Assembly (NCBI GenBank): GCA_938038205.1
Contig: CALHSA010000003.1
Span: 1 to 64,000 of the forward strand
Source of the DNA: an uncultured bacterium
GTDB lineage: Bacteria; Bdellovibrionota_C; UBA2361; JANWWW01
Reading direction: 5' to 3'
DNA length: 64,000 nucleotides
Position numbers and translations under genes: made by a program. This document shows positions 226-60,626 of the stretch, piece after piece. Every line of letters starts with the position of its first letter. The first letter of the stretch is position 1. The notes beneath the pieces are model-generated. The model was not told the origin of the DNA. It saw only the letters and a program-made list of their open reading frames with translations, and did no database searches.

Positions 226-231
226 TATAAT
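226..231 (+). promoter_or_regulatory. Minus-10 box of rpmJ, leaderless arrangement
   Basis: A perfect TATAAT ends 6 nt before the GTG of rpmJ. A transcript starting about 7 nt downstream of the box would begin at or next to the start codon. No Shine-Dalgarno sequence is visible and the minus-35 region is weak. The promoter role is inferred from sequence alone. Confidence 0.55.
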
Positions 232-237
232 AAAAAC

Positions 238-354
238 GTGAAGGTTAAGTCATCAATAAAACGTAGGGGGCCAGACTGTTATATTGTTAGAAGAAGAGGT
301 AGGTTATATGTTTACTCGAAAAAAAATCCAAAGTTTAAACAAAGACAGGGTTGA
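238..354 (+). CDS. rpmJ: 50S ribosomal protein L36 (zinc-free form)
   Basis: A 38-residue protein begins [10 protein letters not shown] and ends NPKFKQRQG, the typical start and C-terminal signature of L36, a small late-assembling protein of the large ribosomal subunit. The start is GTG. The zinc-binding CxxC...C...H set is mostly lost: one Cys remains, and the other Cys and His positions carry Gly, Tyr and Phe, so this is a C-minus (zinc-independent) L36. It is normally found in the spc operon or before rpsM; here it leads a run with a GNAT-like gene and uvrB/uvrC. Its stop (TGA) overlaps the TTG start of the next gene. Confidence 0.93.
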
Positions 355-719
355 AGTGGTTAAGTAACAGATATTTACGTAGAGTATATAAATCACCTTA
401 CTTTTCGCCTGGGATACTAGATGCTTCTAATTTGCGAATCTTCAGGTTGGCTAATATCTCATTCTGTGCACTTATAGGGTCTACTGTATTTGATATTGGT
501 TACGTATTCACAAATGCAAAATTTAGGAACAGACAAAATGCATACTTTTTGATTAAAAAAATTTTAAGAGTTTGTAAGGGAGAGGTTTTTGCACAGGTTG
601 CCTCCGTAAACTTAGCGAGTTTAGCTCTCTTTACAAAGTTAGGGTTTAAATTAAGCAGGGTTCTATACGGGTATCATGGCCCCTTTCCTACATACGAATT
701 AGTCAAAAATGAAAGGTAA
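351..719 (+). CDS. GNAT-like N-acetyltransferase, short
   Basis: This 122-residue protein has the second half of a GNAT fold: a basic stretch followed by a helix (residues ~55-72, the acetyl-CoA pyrophosphate loop region), then the pattern [17 protein letters not shown] (~83-99), which matches the family's N..S..L(F/Y)..(L/C)GF motif. The first strands are short or diverged. It starts with TTG, and TTGA overlaps the rpmJ stop, suggesting translational coupling. Its end overlaps uvrB by 11 nt. The substrate is unknown. A ribosomal-protein acetylation role would be a guess from the rpmJ neighbour only. Confidence 0.65.
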
Positions 720-5795: not shown

Positions 5796-5822
5796 CATAA
5801 TTTTTGATCTTAGTTCTTATGT

Positions 5823-7923: not shown

Positions 7924-7938
7924 AAATAGATTTAAGCT

Positions 7939-9264
7939 ATGAGTTCAATAATTAATGGTTTATTTTCAGGTAGGTCAGGAGTATCAAGCCATGGAACGGC
8001 AATATCAGTTATTGGCGATAATATATCAAATGCCAATACTATTGGTTTTAAAACTGCTAGAGCAGAATTTGAGGACCTTGTTGCTTCTGGTCAAGCCTCA
8101 AATAGGATAATCGGATCGGGGTCACAAATTGGCTCTGTATCCACCATTTTTACTCAAGGAACACTTGAATCAACGACCAGGCAGCTTGACCTTGCAATAG
8201 CTGGAAATGGATTCTTTATCCTAGATAAAAATGGGGAAAGATTTTACACCAGAGCGGGAAATTTCAAACTCGATAATGAAGGTTTCATAATTAATCAATC
8301 TGGAATGTACGTTCTAGGTTATGCCGCAAACGGAAGTGGAGATCTAGTTAGAATCAACATAAATAACTTCAATGCCAACAATGAAATATATACAACCAGA
8401 GTAAAAATTACTGGAAATGTGGATGCTAATCAGCCAATTTTACCCGCTGCAACATTAACTGCTTTAAACGCAGGAACACCACTTGCTGGTTCTCCCACTG
8501 CAGGATCTACAACTTTTGCCGATTTAGCTAGTGCTGCTGCCTATTCAACAGTATTTGAGGTATTTGATTCTCTTGGCCAAAGTCATAACATTACAGCCTT
8601 CTTTTTCAAAACGGGAGTGAATCAGTACACTGTGCAATTTTACGTAAAAGCTGAGGAGGTTCAGAATAGTCCAGCAAGTGATGCTGGTTTACCGCGAAGA
8701 TTAGCCAATGCAGGACAAACTGACTGGGATATTGTTTTAACTTTTACTGGTACCGGGCAACTGGCAGCTACCTCAGAAACTGAATTGACAGTCTCAATTC
8801 CATGGGCCAACGGTGCTGATCCCAGTTCAATAACAATTAATCTGGCAGAATTTACCCAATTTGCAAGCCCCTCTAATATTAACTCGATCTCTCAAAACGG
8901 AAAGGGTGTTGGAATCATTGGTAACATAACTGTATCAAATAATGGTCAAATTTATGCACTTTTAACAAATGGTCAATCAGCTTTAATAGGAACAATTGCA
9001 CTGGCTAATTTTGCTAATCCTGAAGGATTAAATCGTGTAGGATCTAACCTTTTAATTCAAACACCTAGTTCAGGAGCCCCTATTTTTGGGACCCCAAATA
9101 GGGGTACATTTGGTAGTTTGGAGTCAGGACGACTAGAATTATCAACTGTTGATATAGCAGATCAGTTTGTCAAATTAATAATGTATCAGAAGGGATACCA
9201 AGCTAACTCTCGTGTAATATCATCAATTAACCAACTTTTAAATGAGTTAATTCAATTAGTTTAA
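7939..9264 (+). CDS. flgE: Flagellar hook protein FlgE
   Basis: FlgE is the structural subunit of the hook joining the basal body to the filament. The N-terminal rod/hook signature is clear (SGVSSHGTAISVIGDNISNA, then NTIGFK), a second motif GNGFFIL lies near residue 92, and the C-terminal D0 helix (QFVKLIMYQKGYQANSRVI) is typical. At 441 residues it is slightly longer than the enterobacterial ~400, mainly in the variable middle domain. It follows flgD by 15 bp. The filament, rod and motor genes are elsewhere. Confidence 0.96.
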   Translation: MSSIINGLFSGRSGVSSHGTAISVIGDNISNANTIGFKTARAEFEDLVASGQASNRIIGSGSQIGSVSTIFTQGTLESTTRQLDLAIAGNGFFILDKNGERFYTRAGNFKLDNEGFIINQSGMYVLGYAANGSGDLVRININNFNANNEIYTTRVKITGNVDANQPILPAATLTALNAGTPLAGSPTAGSTTFADLASAAAYSTVFEVFDSLGQSHNITAFFFKTGVNQYTVQFYVKAEEVQNSPASDAGLPRRLANAGQTDWDIVLTFTGTGQLAATSETELTVSIPWANGADPSSITINLAEFTQFASPSNINSISQNGKGVGIIGNITVSNNGQIYALLTNGQSALIGTIALANFANPEGLNRVGSNLLIQTPSSGAPIFGTPNRGTFGSLESGRLELSTVDIADQFVKLIMYQKGYQANSRVISSINQLLNELIQLV

Positions 9265-9288
9265 GTCCAAAAAATTTGAAATTTTGGT
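9265..9288 (+). terminator. Possible weak hairpin after flgE
   Basis: Directly after the flgE stop an imperfect inverted repeat pairs CCAAAA with TTTTGG across an A/T-rich centre (9267-9287). There is no U-tract behind it, so an intrinsic terminator is doubtful. It is the only hairpin I found next to the end of the flagellar run. Confidence 0.25.
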
Positions 9289-9321
9289 CTTAAACGCTTA
9301 AATTATATTTAGAAAGCAAAA

Positions 9322-12432: not shown

Positions 12433-13423
12433 AAAGAAACTGGTTTATTACATTACCAAACTTATAGTTAAAACTGGTTCCATCAAACTCAGACTGAATA
12501 GCTTTAAAATAATTGATGTTGACCTCGTCTCCCCGCTTAAAACTAGCCTTAATCGCACTCTGTAGAGCATAATCTGAAAGATCTTCACTGAAAATATCAA
12601 TTTCAGTTTTAAATGGGACAAATGGAGCAAGTGGCCGCGATATTACCGGCGTGTAAGCAAATCTACTTTCAAGATAAACATAACCAAAGCCCTCGTCAAA
12701 AGATGGGATCAGTATCCAACGTGCTCTTTGATATAAATCAATAAGATCTTTGTCAGATGGATTCGGTACAATATCGATGTTATTTTTTTTCAGATATCTC
12801 AAAGAGCCTACGTTACCTGCAATAACCAGTTTTGGGAAGTTTTTCTCCCAGATCTGAATCAGATTGTTAACTCCCTTGTGTTTCTTCAAATTTGAAAAAA
12901 CAGCTAAGTAAAAATCCTCTTTTGATTTTAATTCTAGGTTTCTAAAAATAGGTTTAACTGGTGGTGGAATAACAATCCAATTTTCAGAGTTTATACCAAA
13001 CTTTCTTGCCTCAATTTTTGTGTAATTGGAAGGGCATACAACTAAGTTTGAGGAGTTAATCGCTCTTTTTATCAACGCCTTAAAAAAAACATCCATTCCT
13101 GATTTTGCAAATTTTATGTGTATGAAATCATGAATGTACAACAATATTTGAGTCGGCAACCTTGAAACTCCAACGTAGTGCGGTGCAATAACTAATTTAG
13201 GCTTGTATTTTTCAACCAAATTTTTCAGAAAAAAATAAGCAAAAGGGTTGTTGCTATTTTTTTTAAACTCAATTCTCTTAAATTTAGGAGCTAAGTGCTG
13301 CATCTGATCAGGATATCCAAGAAGAGCTATATCCTGTTCAGAATTACTAACTGCAACTAAAATAGCCTCTAAAACGTTCCCGATACCGTAATGGCCTAAT
13401 TTTCTACAATCAATCCAAATCAT
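12413..13423 (-). CDS. Glycosyltransferase family 4
   Basis: A 336-residue GT4-type enzyme. It has VVCPSNYTKIEARKFG (~134-149) and the C-terminal PSFDEGFGYVYLESRFAYTPVISR block that holds the E-x7-E-like catalytic signature. The N-terminal half starts with MIWIDCRKLGHYGIGN, resembling the acceptor domain of mannosyltransferases. It starts directly after the upstream GT2 gene (stop and start adjacent) and overlaps the next GT4 gene by 20 nt, so all are one transcript. Sugar specificity is unknown. Confidence 0.86.
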   Translation of the reverse strand: MIWIDCRKLGHYGIGNVLEAILVAVSNSEQDIALLGYPDQMQHLAPKFKRIEFKKNSNNPFAYFFLKNLVEKYKPKLVIAPHYVGVSRLPTQILLYIHDFIHIKFAKSGMDVFFKALIKRAINSSNLVVCPSNYTKIEARKFGINSENWIVIPPPVKPIFRNLELKSKEDFYLAVFSNLKKHKGVNNLIQIWEKNFPKLVIAGNVGSLRYLKKNNIDIVPNPSDKDLIDLYQRARWILIPSFDEGFGYVYLESRFAYTPVISRPLAPFVPFKTEIDIFSEDLSDYALQSAIKASFKRGDEVNINYFKAIQSEFDGTSFNYKFGNVINQFLYAEYRP

Positions 13424-14433: not shown

Positions 14434-14462
14434 TTGAGATAATGGTTTAACTCTGATATACT
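14434..14462 (+). promoter_or_regulatory. Promoter of rplP (minus-35 TTGAGA, 17-bp spacer, minus-10 TATACT)
   Basis: TTGAGA at 14434-14439 and TATACT at 14457-14462 are separated by exactly 17 bp, a near-consensus housekeeping promoter. The minus-10 box ends 7 nt before the rplP ATG, so the expected start site coincides with the ATG or lies one base before it. The transcript would be leaderless. The promoter is inferred; the spacing is read directly. Confidence 0.7.
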
Positions 14463-14469: not shown

Positions 14470-14898
14470 ATGCTTACAAGTCCGAGAAAGCCAAAGTATC
14501 GAAAGCAAATGAAGAGATTAAGGCACCTCTCTGGAAGAGAGACCCGTGGAGTCCAATTTGCTTTTGGCGATTTTGGTCTCAGAGCTCTAGAATCAACTTA
14601 TCTAACCAGTCGTCAAATTGAGGCTGGAAGAATAGCCATAGTAAGGCATGTTAAAAGAGGGGCTAAGATATGGATAAGAGTTTTTCCTCAAAAACCAATT
14701 ACAAAAAAACCAGCAGAGACAAGAATGGGGAAAGGAAAAGGATCCACAGAATATTGGGTAGCGGAAGTAAGAGCTGGCAAACTTATTTATGAAATGAGTG
14801 GGGTTCCAAAAAAATTAGCCTTTGAGGCTTTAGAAAGGGCAGCTGATAAGATGCCTATAAAATGCAGAGTTGAAGCCAGAAGTCAGTATCTCATTTAA
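14470..14898 (+). CDS. rplP: 50S ribosomal protein L16
   Basis: L16 organises the A-site region of the large subunit. The 142-residue protein has all family blocks: an N-terminal basic MLTSPRKPKYRKQMK, FGDFGLRALE, LTSRQIEAGRIAI, KIWIRVFPQKPITKKP, RMGKGKGSTEYWVAEV and YEMSGVPKKLAFEAL. It lies alone between a divergent glycosyltransferase and a convergent metallopeptidase. rpsC and rpmC, its usual neighbours in the S10 operon, are absent from the window. A strong promoter immediately precedes it, and its end overlaps the convergent gene by 8 bp. Confidence 0.98.
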   Translation: MLTSPRKPKYRKQMKRLRHLSGRETRGVQFAFGDFGLRALESTYLTSRQIEAGRIAIVRHVKRGAKIWIRVFPQKPITKKPAETRMGKGKGSTEYWVAEVRAGKLIYEMSGVPKKLAFEALERAADKMPIKCRVEARSQYLI

Positions 14899-15580
14899 GT
14901 TTATCAACGCTAAGTAAAGCTCTTTCAATATCCTGAGGTGTAAACTTTAATTTTGAATTTCGCAAGTATGATAAAATCGGGTTCTTGTAACCCTGATTTA
15001 TCAGAAACCGAACAGCATAGTAGCTAACACCATAAGCTTGCATCGCCTCTCGCTGTGGTAGAGCTGACATTCCACTAGTTAACCGCGTTAAGGAAGGTCT
15101 TTTAGGGTTGTTTCTCCATAATTCGAAAAACTTAATTAAATACTCATTATCATCTGTAGACTCTAGATATAAGGCTAAACCCTCATCTAACCACTCGGGG
15201 ACTGTTGGACCAAAATTTTTGTAAATTACTAGATGAGTTAACTCGTGTCTAACTGCTCTTAATAAATTCTTTGATTGGTAAGTTGAGTATGGAATTAATA
15301 TAACACCACTTACAAAAAAAGCGTTAGACCATGACGGAGCTCGGTATCGAAGAAAATAGTCTGAATCCTTTACAACCTTAACTACACCTTTAGTTGAACC
15401 TTTTTTTAACTCAAAAAATTCTTCTATATCAGCTAAATTAGAGCAGACCAATTTTCGAAAATCCCCAGAAAATTTAATATACTCATCTCCCTCAACTATA
15501 AGTGAGCAAGAGTATATTTGTTGAATGGCAATTATAAAACACAATTTTAGTATTAAAAAAATTTGTCTTATATTTTTCAC
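14891..15580 (-). CDS. Secreted gluzincin-type metallopeptidase (possible lipoprotein)
   Basis: A 229-residue protein with a hydrophobic signal region (~6-20) ending in a Cys at 25 (IYSC, a loose lipobox). HELTH at 112-116 is followed by WLDEGLALYLE, where E133 is the expected third zinc ligand, as in the MA-like peptidase group. It starts with GTG, and a TATGTT box lies only 5 nt upstream. It stands alone on the minus strand between pdhB and rplP. The target is unknown. A second protein of the same type is at 58672-59370. Confidence 0.72.
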   Translation of the reverse strand: MKNIRQIFLILKLCFIIAIQQIYSCSLIVEGDEYIKFSGDFRKLVCSNLADIEEFFELKKGSTKGVVKVVKDSDYFLRYRAPSWSNAFFVSGVILIPYSTYQSKNLLRAVRHELTHLVIYKNFGPTVPEWLDEGLALYLESTDDNEYLIKFFELWRNNPKRPSLTRLTSGMSALPQREAMQAYGVSYYAVRFLINQGYKNPILSYLRNSKLKFTPQDIERALLSVDKLK

Positions 15581-15647
15581 TAATTAACATATCGTCCTAT
15601 TGTTTTATTTTTTTAAATATTTTTTTTAAACGAAATAAAAAAGTAAA

Positions 15648-23231: not shown

Positions 23232-23237
23232 AGTATA
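23232..23237 (-). promoter_or_regulatory. Minus-10 box of the tal-zwf-opcA-pgl operon
   Basis: TATACT on the minus strand ends 7 nt before the tal ATG. No ribosome binding site lies between. The box faces away from the TATAAT of the divergent gene at 23308, so two leaderless-type promoters share about 80 bp. Confidence 0.5.
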
Positions 23238-23295: not shown

Positions 23296-23301
23296 TATAA
23301 T
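23296..23301 (+). promoter_or_regulatory. Minus-10 box of the 23308 gene
   Basis: A perfect TATAAT is followed by six A residues and then the GTG start codon, the same geometry as rpmJ. No Shine-Dalgarno sequence is present. Confidence 0.55.
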
Positions 23302-26688: not shown

Positions 26689-26741
26689 CCTAGCTCTTCA
26701 ATATTTCGATGTGATAAAATACAAATAGTATCAATGTAAAT

Positions 26742-28451: not shown

Positions 28452-28471
28452 TGATCTATTATTATGATTCT

Positions 28472-29874: not shown

Positions 29875-29950
29875 ACAATTTTATTTTAATACTTAAAGTC
29901 CTCAAAATCCATAAAACTAAGCCAAAGAATTGAAGAAGTTGTATCAAAAG

Positions 29951-29956
29951 TATAGC
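29951..29956 (+). promoter_or_regulatory. Minus-10 box of the skp-fabZ-lpxA-lpxI operon
   Basis: TATAGC ends 8 nt before the ATG of the Skp-like gene. A TTGAAG at 29930-29935 lies 15 bp upstream as a possible minus-35. No Shine-Dalgarno sequence intervenes, so the transcript would have at most a one- or two-base leader. Confidence 0.4.
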
Positions 29957-32668: not shown

Positions 32669-32674
32669 TATAAT
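32669..32674 (+). promoter_or_regulatory. Minus-10 box of thrS
   Basis: A perfect TATAAT ends 8 nt before the thrS ATG. TTAACA (32644-32649) lies 19 bp upstream as a possible minus-35. No leader long enough for a T-box or attenuator exists, so thrS regulation by an RNA leader is unlikely here. Confidence 0.55.
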
Positions 32675-40398: not shown

Positions 40399-40456
40399 TA
40401 TTTTTTTATTTTATCGAATTTATCAAGTTCATAAAACTCCCGTACAAATCTTCAAG

Positions 40457-41647: not shown

Positions 41648-41712
41648 TTAACCTAAGGGAAAGTTTATGATGATTCTGGCAAAATTTAAATATAAAAAGT
41701 AAACTAAAAAAC

Positions 41713-42957
41713 ATGAAAGAGGTAAGAATGCCTCAGTTAAGTGACACAATGACCGAGGCAAAAATTTTAAAATGGAATAAGAAAGTTGGTGATTCAATTA
41801 AGCGAGGTGATATTTTGGCGGAAGTGGAAACTGATAAAGCAAATCTTGAGATAGAGGCTTTTGAAGAAGGGTATTTAACAGAAATCAGATTTGAAGAAGG
41901 GACCAGGGTATCTGTAGGTGAGGTAATTGCGGTTATTTCCAATACTCGTGAAACTAACGCAAGCATTACAAACCCCATACCTGTAGGTAAAACTGAAGAG
42001 GAGGAAAAGAAAGTCACAGACAAAAAACAAGGGTCGCAAGTTCATTCAGGAAAATCGAATGGTAGTAACTTTTTAGGATTAGAGAAAAGAGTTAAAGCCT
42101 CTCCACTTGCAAAAAAAGTAGCTCAGAGTATGGGTATTGATGTGTCAGAAATTCAAGGTTCTGGACCACATGGTAGGGTAATTATCCGAGACATTCAGAG
42201 CATTAGTTCCAATTTGCCAAAAGTAGAATCAGCGAAGTCAGAGAATTTAGATGGAAGCTCATTAAACTCAGAGGTGAACTCGTTAAACGAGGAGTTGTCG
42301 GGTATGAGGCGAGCAATTGCACAAGGTATGGTAAAAAGCTTCTCAGAGATACCTCATTTCTACATAAAAGCGTCAGTTCAAGTGGATAGACTTTTAGAGT
42401 TTAGGGCTAATTTGAAAGAGTTGCCAGTTTATGCAAATCTCTCAATCACCCATATCATACTCAAAACTCTAGGCAATGTTATTAGAGAGTTTCCTAGTAT
42501 AAATGTTAAATTTGACGGAAAACAGATTATTAGGCATACTTCAGTTGATATTGGGATTGTGGTAGGGGTAGACGATGGGCTGGTAGTACCAATTTTAAAA
42601 AGAGTAGATGAGAAAAATCTGGCAGAGATAATCGCTGATGCCGATTTGTTAATTAGCAAAGCTAGACAACGTAAATTATCTACACATGATTTATCTGGAG
42701 GTTGTTTTGCTGTATCTAATCTTGGAATGTTTGGAGTTGAGGATTTCTCAGCAATTATATATCCCGGTCATGTTGGCATTTTAGCTGTCTCTTCGACTAG
42801 AAAGGTTCCTATTGTTGAAAATGAACAGATTAAGATTGTAAATAGTCTAAATTTAACTGCATCATTTGATCACAGAGTTGTAGATGGAATCCTGGGAGCA
42901 AATTTTGTAAACAGAATTAAAAAATACTTAGAGCATCCTGAGCTTATTTTAGCCTAA
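41713..42957 (+). CDS. pdhC: Dihydrolipoamide acetyltransferase, E2 of pyruvate dehydrogenase
   Basis: E2 core of the pyruvate dehydrogenase complex. The 414-residue protein has one lipoyl domain (residues 1-77, lipoyl Lys K42 in ETDKANL), a linker, the peripheral-subunit-binding domain (~125-165: KASPLAKKVAQSMGID and GPHGRVIIRDI), and the acyltransferase domain ending with the catalytic SFDHRVVDG. The MPQLSDTMTEA start is typical of pyruvate-type E2. It lies 24 kb from pdhAB, with unrelated genes between. Confidence 0.95.
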   Translation: MKEVRMPQLSDTMTEAKILKWNKKVGDSIKRGDILAEVETDKANLEIEAFEEGYLTEIRFEEGTRVSVGEVIAVISNTRETNASITNPIPVGKTEEEEKKVTDKKQGSQVHSGKSNGSNFLGLEKRVKASPLAKKVAQSMGIDVSEIQGSGPHGRVIIRDIQSISSNLPKVESAKSENLDGSSLNSEVNSLNEELSGMRRAIAQGMVKSFSEIPHFYIKASVQVDRLLEFRANLKELPVYANLSITHIILKTLGNVIREFPSINVKFDGKQIIRHTSVDIGIVVGVDDGLVVPILKRVDEKNLAEIIADADLLISKARQRKLSTHDLSGGCFAVSNLGMFGVEDFSAIIYPGHVGILAVSSTRKVPIVENEQIKIVNSLNLTASFDHRVVDGILGANFVNRIKKYLEHPELILA

Positions 42958-42982: not shown

Positions 42983-42991
42983 TGTTAAAAT
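42983..42991 (+). promoter_or_regulatory. Extended minus-10 promoter of mnmG
   Basis: TGT followed by TAAAAT forms an extended minus-10 element ending 10 nt before the GTG of mnmG; TTAGGA (42963-42968) lies 17 bp upstream. The expected leader is about three bases. Confidence 0.45.
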
Positions 42992-43001: not shown

Positions 43002-44825
43002 GTGAGGCGTCTGATTGTTATTGGTGGGGGACACGCGGGAATTGAGGCCTCTGCTGCTGCGGCTAGGATGGGTTGCGATGTTATTATGATAACGCTCTCG
43101 AGAAACAAGATAGGTGAAATGTCATGTAATCCGGCTATCGGTGGGGTTGGTAAAGGTCAAATTGTTAAAGAAATTGATATTCTTGGCGGTATTATGGCCC
43201 AAGCAATAGACCGAACTGGAATCCAATTTCGCAAGTTAAACTCTTCAAGAGGGTGCTCAGTGATAAGCTCGAGATCTCAGGCGGATAGATATCTGTATCA
43301 GAAATGGATGCAAAATAGGATTGAAACATACTGTAACATTAAAATTCTTGAAGATGAAGTTGAAAGCATCTGTGTAAAGAATAACAGGGTAAATGGTGTT
43401 GAAACTGTGAGAAACGGATTTATTAAAGCCGATGCTGTAGTCGTAACAACTGGAACCTTTCTTAAAGGGTTGATGCACCAAGGAGAAAAAAAAATTCAGG
43501 GAGGAAGATACTCTGAACCACCTGCAAATAACCTTAGTAACAATCTGCTTGATTTAGGTTTTGAACTAATAAGATTAAAAACTGGAACACCCCCTCGATT
43601 ATTAAAAAGTTCAATAAATTTTGATGGACTAATAAAAGTACCTCCAGATAAAACAATTGAACCATTCTCTTTTTGGAGTAGATCCGTCAATTTACCTCAG
43701 ATAGATTGCTACCTTACGGCAACAAATGATAGTGTTCATGATATAATTCTAAAAAATAGAGAGAGAAGTCCAATTTTTAATGGCCAAATTCAGGCTTGTG
43801 GTCCAAGGTATTGTCCCTCAATTGAAGATAAAGTCTTTCGTTTTAGCAACAAAACATCACATCAGATTTTTCTAGAACCGGAGGGGTTAGACTCAGATAT
43901 TATTTACCCTAATGGAATATCAACAAGTTTACCTATTGAAGTTCAAGATCAATTCATTCGTCTGATCCCGGGACTTTCAGATGTTAAAATAGTTAGATAT
44001 GGTTACGCGGTTGAGTATGATGCCATAAAACCAACCCAACTTAAACAAAGCTTAGAAGCTAAACACATCGAAGGAGTTTTTTTTGCGGGACAAATAAACG
44101 GAACATCTGGATACGAAGAAGCTGCAGGACAAGGTATTATTGCTGGCATTAACGCTGCTCTGTACCTAAAGGGGGAACCGCCTTTTGTATTAAAACGAAA
44201 TGAAGCCTATATTGCGGTTATGATAGATGATCTAACTTCATTGGGGGTCGAAGAACCATATAGGATGTTTACGAGCAGGGTAGAGTACAGGCTCTCTATC
44301 CGAGAGGATAACGCCTTTGTAAGATTAGGTGAATATGCTATTAAACTTGGACTCCTACCTGAACAAAAGAGAGTAACTCTTGAGAAAGCTCTACAGTCTT
44401 ATCACTTTTTAAAATCAAATGCAAACAAGCTAAAGGTTGATATCTCAGGTGAAAGTATGAATCTTGAAAAAGCCGCAAAACGAGCTGATATCGAATTTAA
44501 GTACGGAGAATACGCCTTTAATTTTGGGGTTGAGGAAAAAGTTTTAAGGGCTGTAGTTAATGATATCAAGCTCTCAGGATATTTGGCACGGCAGCATCGT
44601 GAAATATCATGGCTTGAGAGAGTTGAATCTATTAAGCTTCCTAAAGAATTAGATTACTCTCAAATTCCCGGGCTAAGAAGAGAGTTTGTTGAAAAACTAT
44701 CAAAAATACGACCGGAAACCTTAGGACAAGTAGCAAGGATGCCTGGAGTAACACCATCGACAATAGTAACATTGGAGTTGTATATAAAGAAAAAAAATGA
44801 GTCAAAACAAGTTAGTTATTGTTGA
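43002..44825 (+). CDS. mnmG: tRNA uridine-34 5-carboxymethylaminomethyl modification enzyme MnmG
   Basis: With MnmE, MnmG (GidA) modifies U34 of several tRNAs using FAD and methylene-THF. The 607-residue protein begins with the FAD motif IGGGHAGIEASAAAARMG and has MSCNPAIGGVGKGQIVKEID, GGRYSEPPANNL, LKTGTPPRL, GTSGYEEAAGQGIIAGINA, and MFTSRVEYRLSIREDNA with the C-terminal helical domain. The start is GTG. topA begins 29 nt before its end in another frame, so the two are linked. mnmE and rsmG are not adjacent. Confidence 0.97.
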   Translation: MRRLIVIGGGHAGIEASAAAARMGCDVIMITLSRNKIGEMSCNPAIGGVGKGQIVKEIDILGGIMAQAIDRTGIQFRKLNSSRGCSVISSRSQADRYLYQKWMQNRIETYCNIKILEDEVESICVKNNRVNGVETVRNGFIKADAVVVTTGTFLKGLMHQGEKKIQGGRYSEPPANNLSNNLLDLGFELIRLKTGTPPRLLKSSINFDGLIKVPPDKTIEPFSFWSRSVNLPQIDCYLTATNDSVHDIILKNRERSPIFNGQIQACGPRYCPSIEDKVFRFSNKTSHQIFLEPEGLDSDIIYPNGISTSLPIEVQDQFIRLIPGLSDVKIVRYGYAVEYDAIKPTQLKQSLEAKHIEGVFFAGQINGTSGYEEAAGQGIIAGINAALYLKGEPPFVLKRNEAYIAVMIDDLTSLGVEEPYRMFTSRVEYRLSIREDNAFVRLGEYAIKLGLLPEQKRVTLEKALQSYHFLKSNANKLKVDISGESMNLEKAAKRADIEFKYGEYAFNFGVEEKVLRAVVNDIKLSGYLARQHREISWLERVESIKLPKELDYSQIPGLRREFVEKLSKIRPETLGQVARMPGVTPSTIVTLELYIKKKNESKQVSYC

Positions 44826-47765: not shown

Positions 47766-47792
47766 AAAAAAGAATTCTTATTAAATATTTCT

Positions 47793-48122: not shown

Positions 48123-48124
48123 AC

Positions 48125-48787
48125 TTAATCAATTAAATACAATAACGGAAATAAAAAAATCCATATTAAATCGACCAAGTGCCAATACAGAGCAGCCAAT
48201 TCAACAGGTGTGTAATACTTTTCTGAAAACCTTTCCCTTCTAGCCAAAAATATAACCCAGAGTAAAACACCCATACCTATTAAGACATGGAGAGCATGTA
48301 AACCAGTCATTACGTAATAAAGTCCAAAATAGTTTTTATACTGAGTAGAGAACTCCGCCGAGTTCCAAAGTTCAGTGCCAGGAAAATAACCATGACGATA
48401 CTTCGCTGAATATTCAAAGTATTTGATAACCAGAAAGGCTAGACCGCAAATGAAAGATACCGTGAAATTCTTTACTACCCCCTGATTATCATTTATCTGA
48501 GCCTTATAAACGGCTATCGCGGCTGTACAACTACTAAAAAGCAAAATCAAAGTATTCAAGCCACCTAATTTCCAATCAAGTTTAGTTGCTGCATGTTGAA
48601 AACTCTCAAAATATGCCCAGTTATAAATTGCAAACGCCGTAAACAAAACAGAAAATAACAAAATCTCAGTAGCTAAAAATAACCACATTCCGAATTTTGC
48701 AGCATGATATGCGTTTATAGGATCAATATGGTGATATACTGGAGGAGCTCCCCTTCCTCCTACCTTTGAGTAAACACTCTCAGCCAC
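48125..48787 (-). CDS. coxC: Cytochrome c oxidase subunit III
   Basis: A 220-residue protein with five predicted membrane helices. It has KFGMWLFLATEILLFSVLF, the FEYSAKYRHGYFPG loop, and GLHALHVLIGM near the end, all typical of subunit III of caa3-type enzymes. GTG start with a strong GGAGG just before it; its start lies 8 nt inside coxA. Confidence 0.96.
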   Translation of the reverse strand: MAESVYSKVGGRGAPPVYHHIDPINAYHAAKFGMWLFLATEILLFSVLFTAFAIYNWAYFESFQHAATKLDWKLGGLNTLILLFSSCTAAIAVYKAQINDNQGVVKNFTVSFICGLAFLVIKYFEYSAKYRHGYFPGTELWNSAEFSTQYKNYFGLYYVMTGLHALHVLIGMGVLLWVIFLARRERFSEKYYTPVELAALYWHLVDLIWIFLFPLLYLID

Positions 48788-50498
48788 TTACACCTCCTTT
48801 TAAACCAAGATCTTCAAGTGGCTTTCCATAATCATACCTTCCAACTGTCACAATCGGCGTATTAATAAAGTTGTCATGAGGCGGAGGACTAGGAGCTTGC
48901 CACTCTAACCCTAACGCTTTGTAAGGATTTGCCGGGGCTTTCTCTTTCGAAAAAACCCAACTTAACGCAAGATTCAATAAAGCCAAAGTATATCCAATAG
49001 CATTGAAAAACATTCCTATAGTCGATAGACGATGCATTGGCTCAAATTCTGGTATGTAGAAGGCATAACGTCTAGGCATACCCTGAACTCCTAAAATAAA
49101 CTGAGGCAGAAAAGTAACATTGAAGCCTATAAAAATTAACCAAAAAGCAAAAATTGCTAATTTTTTGTTGTACATTTTACCCGTAATTTTTGGAAACCAA
49201 AGATGTAACCCCGCGATTAAACCAATTACAGCTCCTCCTTGAATTGTATAGTGGAAATGAGCAACTACAAAATACGTATCATGATAAAAAATATCTAACC
49301 CCAAAGTCGCTAAAAATATACCCGTTGTGCCAGCAATCATAAATAGGAATACAAAAGCCATAGCATATAACATAGGGGCTTCAAAAGATATTGCTCCCTT
49401 GTACATAGTGCTAACCCAATTAAAAACCTTTATTGCAGTTGGAATAGCTACTCCAAAAGTTGTCGCTGAGAAGAAAGCCTGACTAAATGGACTCATTCCT
49501 GCCGTGTACATGTGGTGAGCCCAAACAATAAACGATACCGCAGCGATACCTACTGAGGAGAATACTACTGCTGAATAACCAAAAATAGGTTTTCTGGAGA
49601 AAATAGGAATAATTTCTCCAATAATTCCAAATGCAGGGAGTACCATTATGTACACAACGGGGTGACTATAAAACCAAAAAAAGTGTTGATACAGAATAGG
49701 ATCACCCCCTTTTTCTGGGTCAAATATCCCAACACCTAAAACTTTTTCAGCTATTAGTAATAACAAAGTTATACCAACAACCGGAGTTGCAAGGACCTGA
49801 ATAATACTAGTTGCATATAGTGACCAAACAAAAACCGGTAGCTTAAACCATGTCAAACCTGGAGCTCTTAATCTATGAATGGTAACTATAAAATTTAACC
49901 CAGTTAGAATTGAAGAAAATCCAAGAACAAAAGCTGCAAACGTCATAATTATGGTCCCCCACCCTGATCCAGCTCCAGTGCTTGTAGAGTATGGTGTGTA
50001 GAATGTCCAACCAGTATCAAGTGGCATCCATGTTCCAATAGCCGATCCTTTTATCTTGCTAACAAGCCAAACTGGATCTAGTAGACCAATAAAACCTATA
50101 AGAGCTCCTAATAGGTATATCCAGAAACTAAATAGGTTAAGCCTTGGAAATGCAACATCTTTGGCTCCAATCATTAATGGCAATAAAAAGTTACCTAAAA
50201 CAGCTGGAATACCTGGAACAATGAATAAAAAGATCATCAAAACCCCATGCAAAGTAAACAGCACGTTATACATATCTGGGGATAAAAGCTTGGAGTCTGA
50301 GCTCCAAAGATGAAGCCTTATGAGTACAGCTGCTAAACCTCCAACTAAAAAGAAAAGAATCATAGCTCCAAGATAAAGTAATGCTATTCGCTTGTGATCA
50401 ATTGTAAAAAGCCAACTCTTTAATCCCTTCTCACAATTCAAATAATTGTTCTTTTCTAAGTGACCTTTCTCATCAACTTGGTAATCAGCGGCTCCCAT
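48780..50498 (-). CDS. coxA: Cytochrome c oxidase subunit I
   Basis: Catalytic heme-copper subunit. The 572-residue protein has twelve or so membrane helices with the key ligands: TLHGVLMIF (heme a His), FWFYSHPVVYIMVLP (CuB His and cross-linked Tyr), WAHHMYTAGM (CuB His pair) and VVAHFHYTIQGG (heme a3 and a His). The YSHPVVYI motif marks a type A oxidase with the K-channel Glu/Tyr region. It is flanked by coxB and coxC in the usual order and pumps protons while reducing O2. Confidence 0.98.
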   Translation of the reverse strand: MGAADYQVDEKGHLEKNNYLNCEKGLKSWLFTIDHKRIALLYLGAMILFFLVGGLAAVLIRLHLWSSDSKLLSPDMYNVLFTLHGVLMIFLFIVPGIPAVLGNFLLPLMIGAKDVAFPRLNLFSFWIYLLGALIGFIGLLDPVWLVSKIKGSAIGTWMPLDTGWTFYTPYSTSTGAGSGWGTIIMTFAAFVLGFSSILTGLNFIVTIHRLRAPGLTWFKLPVFVWSLYATSIIQVLATPVVGITLLLLIAEKVLGVGIFDPEKGGDPILYQHFFWFYSHPVVYIMVLPAFGIIGEIIPIFSRKPIFGYSAVVFSSVGIAAVSFIVWAHHMYTAGMSPFSQAFFSATTFGVAIPTAIKVFNWVSTMYKGAISFEAPMLYAMAFVFLFMIAGTTGIFLATLGLDIFYHDTYFVVAHFHYTIQGGAVIGLIAGLHLWFPKITGKMYNKKLAIFAFWLIFIGFNVTFLPQFILGVQGMPRRYAFYIPEFEPMHRLSTIGMFFNAIGYTLALLNLALSWVFSKEKAPANPYKALGLEWQAPSPPPHDNFINTPIVTVGRYDYGKPLEDLGLKGGVSG

Positions 50499-50538
50499 CT
50501 AACTCTATTCTAAAAACATTTGCCTAATTTAAAAACTA

Positions 50539-51834: not shown

Positions 51835-52345
51835 TCTTACCCCAAAAAAAACTTAAATAAAGAGTCAACGCTAACATCACAAACAATACAATAAAATAAA
51901 AAGTTTTAAAAGATTTGTCTTTTACACCCTCGACAAATTTAGATTCACAATTTACTTCATTTGGGTTAGGAAAATTACTAGTGTTACAAAAAAGATAAAG
52001 CTCCTTAAAAGAGACACAACCCAAAGCATTTTCAAATCCAAATTCTTCAGTTTTGTATTTTGTAACTACAACTGGAGATATTACTCCATTAAATTTAATA
52101 GGTTGTTTTGTAAAAAACAGAGCTGAATTATGTTTTTTTAATGCTTGAAGCAGTCTTTGATTAATCAATTCATCTGGATTCTCATCTTTTATAAAAACTT
52201 GCACATGGTAATTACACTTTTTAGCAACCTCTGAAAGATATCTCAAAGCTTTAGTTGCACCTGGCCATTCAAAATCAATACCAACATTCAAATATAACTT
52301 TTGTTCAGCAAGGATTTGTAAGGTTAAGAGTAAAAATACAATCAC
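51818..52345 (-). CDS. Unknown membrane-anchored periplasmic protein upstream of coxB
   Basis: A 175-residue protein with an N-terminal signal sequence (~1-13), a soluble middle region with three or four Cys, and one C-terminal membrane helix (~148-168), so it probably faces the periplasm. It overlaps glmU by 4 nt and coxB by 17 nt. No known oxidase assembly factor (Cox11, Sco) matches; the CxxxC of Sco is missing. A role in the oxidase is an inference from position only. Confidence 0.55.
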   Translation of the reverse strand: MIVFLLLTLQILAEQKLYLNVGIDFEWPGATKALRYLSEVAKKCNYHVQVFIKDENPDELINQRLLQALKKHNSALFFTKQPIKFNGVISPVVVTKYKTEEFGFENALGCVSFKELYLFCNTSNFPNPNEVNCESKFVEGVKDKSFKTFYFIVLFVMLALTLYLSFFWGKNENST

Positions 52346-53757
52346 TTTTTCTTTCTTTGACAGTATTTTTCAAATCCACCATCTATTAGTTTAGAATCTG
52401 CCCTCTCAACAAATAAGCATCCATCATGTAGATTTTTGGTAACGGTAGATCCAGCACCAATTAAAACCCTTGAACCAATCTCAATTGGAGCTATCAAATT
52501 CACGTTCGCACCAATCAGACACTCAGATCCGATTTTTGTAAAATGTTTGCTAAAACCATCAAAATTGCAGGTTATCGTACCCGCTCCAATGTTTGATTTT
52601 GCTCCGATAGAGCAATCTCCCAAGTAAGAGAGGTGATTCACTTTGACTCCAGTTGCTAGCTCAGCATTTTTTGTTTCAACAAAATTACCTATCCTTACCT
52701 CATCAGAAATTTTTGTGCCCTCTCGAATACGAGCAAAGGGGCCGATCACACACGAGTCTCCAAATCTAGCTCCTTCAATGTAGCAAAACGCCTTAATCAG
52801 GTTTTTATTGCCACATGAAACGTCATAAAGATAAGTAAACCCCTCAATTGCATTACCCGCTCCTATTCGATTCTCGCCAAAAAAGTACACATGGGGCCCT
52901 ATTACGCAATTTTCTGAAATCTGAGTGGCAGGACTTACATAAACGGTCTCGGGATATCTAAACTCGACTCCACTCTCTTTAAACTTGTTAATCCTCATCC
53001 TATTTAATGCAAGATTTAGTTCAGTTAATTCCTCTTTTTTATTAACTCCAACAAATTCATCCGAATTCTCGGTTAAAATAGCATCGTATAACATACCTTT
53101 AGCTGCAAAAACATCTAGGATTAAGGGTAAATAAAATTCAATGTTGCGCGACCTACAACTTTCAAGTAGATACTCCCCTGTTTCATTCATAACCTGATTA
53201 AGACTCTGAAAATCAAAAACAAAGACTCCAGTACTAACCTCTCGGATCAATTTTTGATATGAAGTACAATGCCGATACTCTTCTATGGAAATGACTCTGC
53301 CTGAGTAAAAGTCCCTGATAACCCTCCCATACTCGTTGTTTTTGAAAACTAACATGGAGTAGAAGCACGCCACATGATCATGTTTCCTCATATGTTCCAG
53401 TAAGAGCCTTAAAGATTCTTTCTTAACTAAAGGAACGTCGCCTAGTAGAACAAAGACACTACTAACATCTCCAAGACTTTTCAATGCAACCTTAACTGCA
53501 TGACCGGTACCCAACTGCTCTTCTTGGATAACAAATTTTATTCTTGGATCGTTGAAATTTCTCTTTACAAAATCAATAACTTCATTAGCTTGGAAGCCAA
53601 CAACAAGAACAATCTCTTTTATAGGTGAGCTGGTAACCTCCTTCAAAAGAATTCCTAAAAGCTCTCCTTCATCTGATTTTGCTAAAACCTTCGGATATTC
53701 AAGCCCCATTCTAGTGCCCTTACCCGCTGCCAAAATAATTGCTCCAGAATTTTCCAT
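52342..53757 (-). CDS. glmU: Bifunctional UDP-GlcNAc pyrophosphorylase / glucosamine-1-phosphate acetyltransferase
   Basis: Makes UDP-GlcNAc for peptidoglycan and lipid A. The 471-residue protein starts with the nucleotidyltransferase motif AIILAAGKGTRMGLEYPKVL and QLGTGHAV (~81-88), then a left-handed beta-helix from ~275 with KNAELATGVKVNHLSYLGD, GAGTITCNFDGFSKH and ANVNLIAPIEIG. The product feeds LpxA elsewhere in the window. It leads the run into the cox operon. A TACAAT box lies 10 nt before the ATG. Confidence 0.96.
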   Translation of the reverse strand: MENSGAIILAAGKGTRMGLEYPKVLAKSDEGELLGILLKEVTSSPIKEIVLVVGFQANEVIDFVKRNFNDPRIKFVIQEEQLGTGHAVKVALKSLGDVSSVFVLLGDVPLVKKESLRLLLEHMRKHDHVACFYSMLVFKNNEYGRVIRDFYSGRVISIEEYRHCTSYQKLIREVSTGVFVFDFQSLNQVMNETGEYLLESCRSRNIEFYLPLILDVFAAKGMLYDAILTENSDEFVGVNKKEELTELNLALNRMRINKFKESGVEFRYPETVYVSPATQISENCVIGPHVYFFGENRIGAGNAIEGFTYLYDVSCGNKNLIKAFCYIEGARFGDSCVIGPFARIREGTKISDEVRIGNFVETKNAELATGVKVNHLSYLGDCSIGAKSNIGAGTITCNFDGFSKHFTKIGSECLIGANVNLIAPIEIGSRVLIGAGSTVTKNLHDGCLFVERADSKLIDGGFEKYCQRKKK

Positions 53758-53826
53758 TTGTTTGGATATTGTAAAAATTTTTTTATCAAATCTAAATTTT
53801 CGATATCTTTTACCGAAAAAACACTA

Positions 53827-56278: not shown

Positions 56279-56326
56279 TTTTAAGGATTTATTTAAAATG
56301 TAATAATTATTCAACGAGAAAGCAAC

Positions 56327-57004: not shown

Positions 57005-57987
57005 GTTGTAAATTCGTAGTTACCCATACTGCTCGACTTGATAAGATTATTGTCGACGCTTTAAAGAACAAATCCCGCTCTCAAGTTGAGAAGTTAATAA
57101 AAGCAGGTTTAGTAATGGTTAATGGTGAGATAGTTAAAAAATGTGGAGCAATCGTAAACTCAGGTGATGAGTTACTAATTTTAGATTTTGATATAAAAAG
57201 CGATGAAACACCCGAGTGCTTTTACGAATTAAGTTTGCCAATTATATTTGAGAATGATTGGTACTTAGCAATTGACAAACCAACTGGAATTGCAGTTCAT
57301 CCTGGAGCTGGGAAAAGGAGTCCTACAGTTATTGATTTCTCTCGAAAACATTTAAAAATAAGTACTATTCCCAATCCAGCTGGTTATTCTGAATTCGGAA
57401 TAGTACATAGATTGGATAAAGATACATCAGGAGTTTTATTAATAGCAAAGAACGTTGATGCTCAAAAGGAGTTATCTCGGCTTTTTAAAGAGCGAAAAAT
57501 AAGAAAGAAATACTTATCTATTAATTTTTTATCGAAAACAGGTAGGTTAAATTTATACGATGAAGGAAAAATTGAGTGCTGGATTATGAGGGATCCATCT
57601 CATAGATTAAGATATGTTTGCTCAAGTGAAAAAAAATCTAAAAGTCGAGATTGTGTTACTTTTTTCAGAAAAATCATTAAATACAATAATGTCGGTGTAA
57701 TTGAGTTCTTTCCGTACACGGGCAGGACACATCAACTTCGTGCTGTAAGCAAATTTGTTAACTGCCCAATAGTGAACGATCCTCTGTATTCAACCAATTT
57801 TGATGAGAATTGTCTAGAACCAGCCCTAAGGGCACTTATACGTAAAATCAAAAGAATGCTTCTACACGCTGTGAGTCTAGAGTTTGAGTGTCCTTTCACT
57901 AAAAATCATATGATTATTAAATCAAACTTACCAAAGGAATTTCTAACTATCATTAACTTCCTGAAGAGTCATCAAAAATTTGAATGA
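57001..57987 (+). CDS. RluD-family 23S rRNA pseudouridine synthase
   Basis: 328 residues with an N-terminal S4 RNA-binding domain (~10-65) and the RluA-family catalytic domain: FENDWYLAIDKPTGIAVHPG and GIVHRLDKDTSGVLLIAK with the catalytic Asp, then the YTGRTHQLRAV motif. It modifies uridines in 23S rRNA. The start is TTG at 57001, overlapping the previous stop (TTGA). The C-terminus overlaps the IHF-like gene tail-to-tail by 35 bp. Confidence 0.93.
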   Translation: MSCKFVVTHTARLDKIIVDALKNKSRSQVEKLIKAGLVMVNGEIVKKCGAIVNSGDELLILDFDIKSDETPECFYELSLPIIFENDWYLAIDKPTGIAVHPGAGKRSPTVIDFSRKHLKISTIPNPAGYSEFGIVHRLDKDTSGVLLIAKNVDAQKELSRLFKERKIRKKYLSINFLSKTGRLNLYDEGKIECWIMRDPSHRLRYVCSSEKKSKSRDCVTFFRKIIKYNNVGVIEFFPYTGRTHQLRAVSKFVNCPIVNDPLYSTNFDENCLEPALRALIRKIKRMLLHAVSLEFECPFTKNHMIIKSNLPKEFLTIINFLKSHQKFE

Positions 57988-58258
57988 CATCCTTACTGGG
58001 CTTGAAAAAAGGAATTTTTTTTGGTTTTGAGTTTATTGGTTTTCCTGTTTTAGGATTTTTACCTGCATAACCCTTATAATCTCGTAGCTCAAAAACACCA
58101 AAACCCCTAAGTTCAACCTTTTTCCCTTCAAGTAAAGCCTCAACTATTGAGGAGAAAAATATATTAACAACAGATTCAACATCATCTACTGAGATGTCAT
58201 TAAACTTTCTCTTTTTAATTAACTCTTTAAAACTTTCAATAAACTGAGACTTATTCAC
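57953..58258 (-). CDS. IHF/HU-family DNA-bending protein
   Basis: 101 residues: VNKSQFIESFKEL start, the ELRGFGVFELRDY strand and GKNPKTGKPI in the DNA-clasping arms with Pro in the intercalation region, then PFFKPSKDV. The pattern is that of IHF-beta or an HU homologue; the two cannot be separated by eye. Start at the GTG at 58258, five bases after a GGAGG; an upstream ATG has no ribosome binding site and lies in the preceding gene. It overlaps the 58255 gene by 4 nt. Confidence 0.93.
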   Translation of the reverse strand: MNKSQFIESFKELIKKRKFNDISVDDVESVVNIFFSSIVEALLEGKKVELRGFGVFELRDYKGYAGKNPKTGKPINSKPKKIPFFKPSKDVIQIFDDSSGS

Positions 58259-58641
58259 GTATACCTCCAATATACTCCTAACCAAATGTTAAGTAATAGT
58301 AATAATCCAAAAAGAACAGTATAAAACTTTATTCTAGGTAAAGAGAGTGTTGCTAAAATGGTAGGATAAAATCCAAATAAGATCCATATACCTATTTTAA
58401 TTAGAATTGGTATCGGGATTGTATGCAACTTAACAAAACCCAATTTATGAAGTAATCCAAACCCTGAAATAATAAATAATCCAAGAACAAACATATAAAA
58501 CCTAACAAAACTCTTCTTTGTCCTACCCTCTAGCCTTCCAATATAAATTCTGTAATAAAAACCGTAAACACTTAAACAAGATAAAAGAACCAAACTAAGC
58601 AAGTGAGTGAAACGGTAGAACTCATATGACACCTTTCGCAT
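58255..58641 (-). CDS. Unknown membrane protein with four helices
   Basis: 128 residues with four predicted membrane helices (~13-30, ~46-64, ~76-96, ~104-123) and several conserved-looking His (H13, H65, H73) that could bind heme, but no known family is clear. It lies between a metallopeptidase gene and the IHF-like gene on the minus strand and overlaps the latter by 4 nt. Confidence 0.6.
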   Translation of the reverse strand: MRKVSYEFYRFTHLLSLVLLSCLSVYGFYYRIYIGRLEGRTKKSFVRFYMFVLGLFIISGFGLLHKLGFVKLHTIPIPILIKIGIWILFGFYPTILATLSLPRIKFYTVLFGLLLLLNIWLGVYWRYT

Positions 58642-58671
58642 TATACGAGGCCTTTTAAGATAACTTCAATA

Positions 58672-59370
58672 TTAGTTGCAGAATTTTGAGAGACCCTTTC
58701 TGTAGGCTGCTTTCAGCTCATTAATTTGAGCAGTTGATATCACTTTAAGAACATCTGACGGTGTAAATGCAAAAAAGATTAACGCGGCTCGTAAGTATCC
58801 ATCCGGACTTAGGTCAAAATTAATATTTTTTGAAGAACAAATCTTGTCAGTTAGAACTGGTGTTAGACCCAGAACCTGATACTCAAACCATGTTGCAAAA
58901 CCCTCATGCACCTCCTGATCTACCCAAAAATCTTCTCTCAACCTAAATAAAGTTACATGTCCAAGCTCATGAATAAGCACACGTTGAAACGATGAATCAA
59001 AATCTCCTGGGACACAATCATGTACTCTGCGTTTAATGATAATAACTTTGTCTCCACCCTGTACCCAACCCGGATGGCACGATTTTTTTAGCCACTCAGG
59101 TAAATCTAAATGATCAACAGAGCCCTCCATTAGAGTTATTGACAAATCCTTTTGGGGGATGTTAACTCCATATTTTGCTAAAAATTTTGAGCTTTGCCTA
59201 ATAGCGTCAAGCACAAGTGGTACAAGCTTTTCAGAATCTTTCCGAGGGGATTTAAAAATTACCCTTCCAAATTTAGTGCTTAGTTCTATTCTTGTTTGCT
59301 GACGAGTATCCAGCTTTATATCAGACTCTTGCCCAAATAAAAAAACAAACAAAATAAACAAAAACCTCAA
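58672..59370 (-). CDS. Secreted gluzincin-type metallopeptidase
   Basis: 232 residues with a short signal peptide (~1-14). The catalytic HELGH lies at 134-138, with E156 in VHEGFATWFE as the third zinc ligand. It resembles the 14891-15580 protein in architecture (signal, ~110-residue domain, HExxH, then EG). Its start overlaps ahcY by 4 nt. Substrate unknown. Confidence 0.75.
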   Translation of the reverse strand: MRFLFILFVFLFGQESDIKLDTRQQTRIELSTKFGRVIFKSPRKDSEKLVPLVLDAIRQSSKFLAKYGVNIPQKDLSITLMEGSVDHLDLPEWLKKSCHPGWVQGGDKVIIIKRRVHDCVPGDFDSSFQRVLIHELGHVTLFRLREDFWVDQEVHEGFATWFEYQVLGLTPVLTDKICSSKNINFDLSPDGYLRAALIFFAFTPSDVLKVISTAQINELKAAYRKGLSKFCN

Positions 59371-60614
59371 GTTCCAAAATGAGCAGATTGTATATAATTT
59401 TTCTGCTCCTCTGTTAGTTCCTCTATTTTAACCCCAAGACTGCGCAATTTTATAGCAGCAATCTCTGAGTCAAGATTATCGGGCAGAGTGTAAACTTTAG
59501 GTGGTAATTCAGAATAATTTTTTAGCATATACTCAATTCCTAAAGCTTGATTTGAGAAGCTAAGATCCATAACAGCAGAGGGATGTCCCTCAGCACAAGC
59601 AAGGTTAACCAACCTACCTTTTGCCAGAATATAAAACCTTCTTCCTCGATAGACTGTCACATAAACCTCAGGCCTCCCCGGTACTTCCTCAAGATTTTCA
59701 AACTCTGTTAAATCAATCTCAACATCAAAATGCCCCGCATTCGCCAATATAACTCCATCTTTAAAAATATCAAAATGTTCTTTCCGTACAACGCTTCTAT
59801 TTCCTGTAGCTGTTATAACAATATCAGCAGTTAAGGCAAAATCAATTAGTCTGCCAACCTCATAACCATCCATCAAAGCCTCAAGGGCTTTTATGGGATC
59901 AATCTCAACAACTCTTACCCTAGCACCCAACCCTCTTAAGGTTTTACTAATTCCTTTGCCACACCAACCATAGCCACAAACTACACACTCCTTACCAGCT
60001 AAAAGATGATTAGTTGATCTAAGAATACCATCAATAACACTTTGGCCAGTTCCGTACCTATTATCAAAAAGATACTTAGTCTTACTCTGATTTACAGCCA
60101 AAATAGGGTATAACAGCTTACCCTCCTTTTCCAAGGCCTTTAACCGTAAAACTCCTGTCGTTGTTTCCTCGGCCCCAAATTTAGGTTTTGAAACATACTT
60201 GCCAGGGTTTTCGTGAATTCTAAAAACAAGATCACATCCATCATCAATCGTGCAATCCGGATTTTTATTAAGCACGGAGTCAAGATTCTGATAATACTCC
60301 TCCCTCGTATCACCTTTTACGGCAAAAACCGCAATGTTAAATTTATCAACCAACGCTGCTGCCACATCATCCTGGGTGCTTAAAGGATTAGAAGCAGCTA
60401 AATACACCTCAGCTCCACCTGCTTTTAAAGTTGTAGCCAAACACGCCGTTTCAGCCGTAACATGCAAACAAGCAGCTATCTTCAACCCTTTTAGAGGTTT
60501 TTCAGATTCAAACCTAGCTCTAATCTGTTGCAAAGTTTGCATTTCTTTCCAGGCCCAATCGATACGATTAGCACCTTGCTCAGATAAACTTAAGGATTTG
60601 ACTCGAAATTCCAT
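59367..60614 (-). CDS. ahcY: Adenosylhomocysteinase
   Basis: Hydrolyses S-adenosylhomocysteine to adenosine and homocysteine in the methyl cycle. The 415-residue protein has ACLHVTAETACLA, the NAD-binding GYGWCGKGI, TTGVLRLKAL, ATGNRSVV and the ANAGHFDVEIDL block, all family signatures. Length matches the shorter form without the ~40-residue insertion. A TAAAAT box lies 6 nt before the ATG, again leaderless-type. Confidence 0.97.
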   Translation of the reverse strand: MEFRVKSLSLSEQGANRIDWAWKEMQTLQQIRARFESEKPLKGLKIAACLHVTAETACLATTLKAGGAEVYLAASNPLSTQDDVAAALVDKFNIAVFAVKGDTREEYYQNLDSVLNKNPDCTIDDGCDLVFRIHENPGKYVSKPKFGAEETTTGVLRLKALEKEGKLLYPILAVNQSKTKYLFDNRYGTGQSVIDGILRSTNHLLAGKECVVCGYGWCGKGISKTLRGLGARVRVVEIDPIKALEALMDGYEVGRLIDFALTADIVITATGNRSVVRKEHFDIFKDGVILANAGHFDVEIDLTEFENLEEVPGRPEVYVTVYRGRRFYILAKGRLVNLACAEGHPSAVMDLSFSNQALGIEYMLKNYSELPPKVYTLPDNLDSEIAAIKLRSLGVKIEELTEEQKNYIQSAHFGT

Positions 60615-60620
60615 GAGGAG

Positions 60621-60626
60621 ATTTTA
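60621..60626 (-). promoter_or_regulatory. Minus-10 box of ahcY
   Basis: TAAAAT on the minus strand ends 6 nt before the ATG of ahcY. The spacer between box and start is CTCCTC, which is not a ribosome binding site, so initiation would be leaderless. Confidence 0.45.

Follow-up and report, generated by a model that had tools for sequence, protein, structure and literature searches.

The question raised by the DNA described here, a 64,000 nucleotide (nt) stretch of contig CALHSA010000003.1 from an uncultured bacterium (the window), is whether the TATAAT-like boxes that end a few nucleotides before many of its start codons are promoters whose transcripts begin at the start codon itself. A sequence-only reading of the window had listed such boxes at operon-leading genes, had pointed to GGAGG-type sites at several operon-internal genes, and had suggested two modes of translation initiation in one genome, with the reservation that AT-rich intergenic DNA raises the chance rate of such boxes and that a count was needed. 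The window is part of contig C3 of a metagenome-assembled genome (the host MAG, G000; 1.22 Mb, 46 contigs, 81% complete, 33% GC), which is an alphaproteobacterium, judged by its genes and relatives. Very probably, to judge from the layout of the DNA, most transcription-unit leaders of this genome carry a sigma-70 promoter with a -10 element ending 6-9 nt before the start codon and give rise to a leaderless or near-leaderless mRNA.

A total of 976 kb of the host MAG was analysed, together with 440 kb of G001, the sole genome of the same family that was compared and a member of another genus, and 80-200 kb from each of five relatives at class level only. The class-level comparison is limited by sample size, and the stretches from G004, G011 and G015 are too small for a decision. 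Genes were called with a home-made coding-potential model that is blind to the sequence upstream of the start, so that the choice of start cannot create the box signal. Leaders were defined as divergent genes or genes lying 30-40 nt or more beyond a same-strand neighbour (for most tests gaps of 12-39 nt were pooled); internal genes follow at a gap of less than 12 nt. The 830 genes classified genome-wide comprise 490 transcription-unit leaders and 340 operon-internal genes.

The recurrence of start-proximal TATAAT-like boxes was confirmed and extends beyond the window to the whole host MAG, where the count against chance places them far above both shuffled sequence and upstream positions. Expectation-maximization (EM) at the leaders yielded the motif TAnAAT, for the most part at a distance of 6-9 nt from the start codon and with a smaller peak at 11; seeding with TATAAT or with CATAAT converged on this motif in either case, at a spacing of 6-8 nt plus the peak at 11. 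In an unseeded scan of all hexamers the top-ranked motifs at leaders, and only there, include TAGAAT, TATAAT and TACAAT. Boxes of the form TAnnnT peak 5-12 nt before leaders, with no such peak before internal genes. A mixture model that takes in the uncertainty of the starts gives a leaderless weight of 0.70 at the leaders (bootstrap 0.63-0.76), compared with 0.04-0.06 in dinucleotide shuffles and 0.01 at the internal genes; this weight falls to 0.06 when the scan is shifted 20 nt upstream, and cross-validation between contigs gave 0.59 and 0.73. Strict boxes (TAnnnT with no more than one middle-position mismatch to TAA, spacing 5-12) precede 160 of the leaders, where the rate at more distant positions predicts 37, and 18 of the internal genes, where 14 are expected.

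A second EM search, covering positions 8-26 nt upstream of each assigned box, recovered a -35 element, TTnAan (TTGA-like), at 17-18 nt. There are 33 and 23 TTG triplets at these two spacings and about 5 elsewhere, and an extended TGn precedes the box in 15% of cases (background 5%). The -35 partner at this distance marks the boxes as sigma-70 promoters. Transcription from such promoters is expected to start about 7-9 nt after the -10 box, and the expected start would thus coincide with the start codon. A test free of start calls used 152 TTGnnn-N17/18-TAnnnT sites lying in non-coding DNA or near a start: ATG was found at offsets 6, 7 and 8 in 8, 7 and 14 cases (background 2 each) and GTG at offsets 6 and 7 in 7 and 5 (background 1), with no peak of TTG, RTA or RCG past these sites (R, A or G) and no ATG or GTG peak at promoter-like sites within genes. 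Among called genes, the starts at strict boxes with a spacing of 6-8 are 49 ATG, 27 GTG and 1 TTG (n=77), and those of the internal genes 274 ATG, 54 GTG and 12 TTG (n=340), so that GTG is enriched at the leaderless spacing (35% vs 16%, p=0.0003). GTG use at this spacing in G001 points in the same direction (5/17) and is not significant.

With the -10 element ending 6-9 nt before the start codon, transcription is expected to begin at or near that codon and the mRNA to be leaderless. RNA polymerase would begin at, or a few nucleotides from, the A or G of the ATG or GTG, and the transcript would be leaderless or have a leader too short to hold a Shine-Dalgarno (SD) site. On leaderless mRNAs, 70S ribosomes and initiator tRNA bind the 5'-terminal AUG or GUG directly, and the predicted transcripts would be bound in the same way.

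The motif and its spacing recur in G001 (TAaaAT/TAaAAT at 6-9 nt). The class relative G003 (39% GC) shows a possible weaker leaderless signal, with a box lacking T at position -7, alongside clear SD sites. The same seeded pipeline returned TAngcT at 6 nt from Deinococcus deserti, which is known for leaderless transcription, and abandoned the TATAAT seed for GGAGG in Escherichia coli and in pSymB of Sinorhizobium meliloti.

Several observations weigh against this reading or against its full extent. The strict count, uncorrected, gives an excess of 123 boxes over the 490 leaders (25%); a correction made by hand for the sensitivity of the pattern (about 0.47, taken from the fitted matrix) raises this floor to about half of the leaders. 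The soft mixture is permissive, in that a reversed matrix absorbs a weight of 0.46 and a reverse-complemented one 0.39, probably since TATAAT read backwards resembles itself, and 70% is therefore an upper estimate. Box presence tends to be shared by start-matched orthologues of the host MAG and G001 (box in both 11, in neither 9, discordant 6; p=0.015), but this start-validated set is small, at 26 pairs, and the home-made caller truncates some signal peptides. A minority of boxes lie at 10-16 nt, implying leaders of roughly 3-9 nt; late start calls, by one codon at spacing 11 or two at 14, were considered and rejected, as no start-like codons occur at -3 or -6. On balance the box appears to be carried by about half to two-thirds of the leaders. 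As leaders make up 490 of the 830 classified genes, this mode would serve about 15% (uncorrected floor) to 41% (mixture) of all classified genes.

Intergenic DNA of 33% GC could yield TATAAT-like hexamers by chance, from which a reader would have chosen those near starts. TAnnnT is indeed common in this DNA and refitted shuffles also give AT-rich motifs, but their likelihood is far lower (log-likelihood at most 54, against 294 for the real leaders), and chance would not lock the boxes in position, remove them from internal starts, link them to a -35 element at 17-18 nt or let the signal cross-validate between contigs. G009, equally AT-rich at 33% GC, has no excess of boxes (39 vs 41), and low GC alone is thus insufficient for the pattern; chance is almost certainly not the explanation. 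It is also very improbable that the hexamer is a translation signal, an A/U-rich ribosome-binding or S1 site on leadered mRNAs of the kind proposed for SD-poor bacteria, and no promoter. SD sites are scarce in the host MAG, which encodes IF3, bS21 and a probable bS1 (six S1 matches in one protein), and the AT-rich upstream bias of some phyla can be read either way (PMC5397173). Such a signal should, however, serve internal genes too, where the weight is 1%, would carry no -35 element at 17-18 nt, and fails to predict ATG or GTG, and not TTG, at a fixed 6-8 nt.

The boxes might instead be real promoters with leaders of about 3-12 nt, or be secondary to a leadered main promoter further upstream. 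The spacing distribution does have a tail and peaks a second time at 11 nt, and in S. meliloti and Zymomonas mobilis additional upstream starts exist for about a third to half of the leaderless genes (PMC3616915, PMC7566282). Against short leaders, the dominant spacing is 6-8 nt, at which the start codon is the expected +1, GTG is enriched and TTG accounts for one start of 77; against a main promoter upstream, the gap between divergent genes (median 65 bp) leaves little room for a second promoter and the scan 20 nt further upstream yields only 6%. This alternative is accordingly judged unlikely, and leaderless or near-leaderless sigma-70 promoters are retained as the preferred explanation.

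Of the two initiation modes proposed by the sequence-only reading, the leaderless one is strongly supported by the -10/-35 layout, RTG at the expected start, the absence from internal genes and the recurrence in G001. The SD mode is weak, and most internal genes carry neither signal. GGAGG-type sites are present at pdhB, at coxC and before the IHF-like frame at 57953-58285, as had been stated, but they are atypical and genome-wide only modestly above background. A strong SD 5-mer is found before 6.8% of internal genes, about twice the background of about 3%, and before 2.9% of leaders; SD cores precede 17% of internal genes against a background of 11% (about 1.5x), and the SD mixture weight at internal genes is 0.32 vs 0.11 shuffled. 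Four-letter SD cores show no excess over shuffles, even at internal genes of the host MAG, and a small excess emerges only with position controls and the stronger 5-mers. Scored identically, SD cores precede 55% of internal genes in E. coli, 62% in S. meliloti pSymB and 71% in D. deserti plasmid 2, all small samples. A 16S rRNA search of the host MAG and G001 found none, an absence that is uninformative as the same search missed 5 of 14 control genomes. Overlaps occur between 45% of same-strand neighbours and measure exactly 4 nt in 82 cases, which makes translational coupling the likelier second mode. Internal genes would then be reached mainly through coupling between overlapping or abutting frames and in a minority of cases through SD sites.

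Within the window, a model trained on the other contigs placed a box at 57% of 34 leaders; shuffles of the window averaged 9% with a maximum of 44% (0 of 100 reached 57%), and the box weight at its internal genes under the same model is 0.1% (n=27). Thirteen boxes listed earlier were checked base by base, and ten proved exact, including those of aconitase and glmU. On the forward strand, TATAAT (226..231) lies 6 nt before the GTG of rpmJ (238-354, identified by Pfam PF00444; box read directly), whose orthologue in G001 likewise has TATAAT 6 nt before a GTG. It is followed by TATACT (14457..14462) 7 nt before the ATG of rplP (14470-14898; posterior 0.98), TATAAT (23296..23301) 6 nt before the GTG of gene 23308-23622 (0.87), TATAAT (32669..32674) 8 nt before the ATG of thrS (32683-34431; 0.98) and TAAAAT (42986..42991) 10 nt before the GTG of mnmG (43002-44825; 0.91). 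On the reverse strand, boxes precede the ATG of tal (22169-23224; TATACT, 23232..23237, 7 nt, posterior 0.99), a BON-domain gene (29203-29874; TAAAAT, 29883..29888, 8 nt, 0.86), aconitase (38146-40398; TAAAAT, 40408..40413, 9 nt, 0.96), glmU (52342-53757; TACAAT, 53768..53773, 10 nt, 0.90) and ahcY (59367-60614; TAAAAT, 60621..60626, 6 nt, 0.97).

The other three listed boxes held in part. TATGTT (15586..15591, reverse), 5 nt before the GTG of the peptidase-MA gene 14891-15580, is weak (mixture posterior only 0.26), as is TATAGC (29951..29956, forward), 8 nt before the ATG of the skp-like gene 29965-30522, for which the mixture model preferred another start. At the reverse-strand aminotransferase gene 27351-28451 (posterior 0.83) the spacing to the ATG is 9 nt for CATAAT (28461..28466) or 6 nt for an overlapping AATAAT, and not 7 as given. 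Boxes absent from the earlier list were found at several further leaders: TAGATT (7927..7932, forward) 6 nt before the ATG of the flgE-like gene 7939-9264, TATATT 12 nt before the start of the gene at 9322, TAGTAT (26726..26731, forward) 10 nt before the ATG of the M50-like gene 26742-27392, TAAACT (41700..41705, forward) 7 nt before the ATG of a 2-oxoacid dehydrogenase acyltransferase gene (41713-42957; posterior 0.97), and TAGAAT (50507..50512, reverse) 8 nt before the ATG of the COX1 gene 48780-50498 (0.95).

The S10-spc-alpha genes form a single cluster in most bacteria, one that ranks among the best conserved. In the host MAG they are scattered, with rplP, rpmJ, rplB, rpsM, rpsL, rpsK and rpsE apart among unrelated genes; rplP stands alone between glycosyltransferase and peptidase genes, and rplB, rpsM, rpsL, rpsK, rplW and rpsE are found on other contigs at 4-15 kb from the ends. 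The scattered ribosomal-protein loci are window 238-354 and 14470-14898, C5 50850, C8 10516, C19 37078, C26 2176-3593, C27 8953, and C29 15241 and 19433. Among the ribosomal genes found, only rpsS-rplV-rpsC and rpoA-rplQ are still together, whereas G003 retains the order rpsS-rplV-rpsC-rplP-rpmC-rpsQ-rplN-rplX-rplE. Many of the separated genes have a box of their own at leaderless distance: rplP (7 nt), rplB (8), rpsS (6), rpmJ (6) and rpsM (TAAACT, 6 before GTG). These observations suggest an association between operon break-up and leaderless promoters, one that Zheng et al. put forward in their survey on the basis of operon statistics (PMC3160421).

The median gap of 65 bp between divergent genes is about the space needed for two back-to-back leaderless promoters. 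A short element, AAACTTTTGCC, lies upstream of a divergent pair at C21 13306-13855 and is conserved in G001; no TAnnnT box occurs there, and the element is possibly another promoter class or an operator. A sigma-28-like TAAA-N15-GCCGAT ends about 10 nt before the ATG of gene 12644-12961 (reverse strand) on C36, so that alternative-sigma promoters may be leaderless too; for flagellar sigma-28 promoters as a group only one or two convincing sites of this kind were found, too few for a conclusion. About 640 bp between two genes at window 61752-62392 hold no obvious gene, a large interval for so compact a genome.

Leaderless transcription is known, and a summary in PMC9581028 puts the share of bacterial species with predicted leaderless transcription at 21.6%. 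The host MAG fits the traits of the TA-led genes of Zheng et al. 2011 (PMC3160421), where TANNNT about 10-12 nt upstream, above shuffles, was read as leaderless: the box exceeds shuffles and is restricted to leaders, with a -35 at 17 +/- 1 nt and ATG or GTG at the predicted start. That survey detected the signal in only 2 of the 117 alphaproteobacteria it covered, where 4.7-7.8% of genes had it; the estimate here is about 15-41% of classified genes. The "-10 motif adjacent to ORFs" of Deinococcus-Thermus (PMC12340547) likewise lies about 6-7 nt before the open reading frame (ORF), and 47% leaderless is the figure cited for D. deserti in PMC5756330. D. deserti belongs to another phylum, has TAngcT where the low-GC host MAG has TAnAAT, and keeps strong SD sites at internal genes (0.71 vs a background of 0.15, n=21; host MAG 0.17 vs 0.11). 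The alphaproteobacterium Caulobacter crescentus has 375 mapped leaderless mRNAs, 9.6% of its coding sequences and a lower fraction than that predicted here, with a low SD usage of 24.6% (PMC4117421). Leaderless mRNAs account for 5% of mapped transcripts in Gluconobacter oxydans (PMC5756330), 7% in Methylobacterium extorquens (PMC9320726) and 119 of 2,675 pairs in Z. mobilis (PMC7566282). As these values were measured and that of the host MAG is predicted, the comparison is provisional.

Most alphaproteobacterial -10 elements, including those of the Caulobacter type, lack T at the last position, -7 (PMC8407463), whereas the host MAG boxes keep it in 86-92%, a figure to be read with the T-bearing seeds from which the fitted motif began. 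Loss of CarD as the cause was rejected, as a frame of CarD size is present at C27:8311-8481. ATG or GTG but not TTG at the start, as predicted here, is also the rule for leaderless initiation in the unrelated mycobacteria, where RTG is enriched at transcription starts (PMC4633059). The leaderless starts of other alphaproteobacteria are almost always ATG (all 171 in S. meliloti, PMC3616915; 57 ATG, 3 GTG and 2 TTG in G. oxydans, PMC5756330), which makes the use of GTG the least expected detail.

Against the open-access literature, the extent of predicted leaderless transcription looks new for Alphaproteobacteria; leaderless initiation has so far been treated as minor in Proteobacteria. Tentatively, and with more doubt than confidence, the whole family may have largely given up SD initiation in favour of leaderless leaders and coupled internal genes, evolving together with the dismantling of the ribosomal operons as each freed gene gained a minimal promoter-plus-start unit. 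Start annotation by SD-based gene finders would be wrong for many genes of such genomes. If the reading is correct, a small-genome alphaproteobacterium with leaderless initiation as the default at its leaders, GTG allowed and SD sites scarce would be a proteobacterial counterpart to Deinococcus and the mycobacteria, and would allow a test of whether leaderless initiation travels with operon loss and genome compaction.
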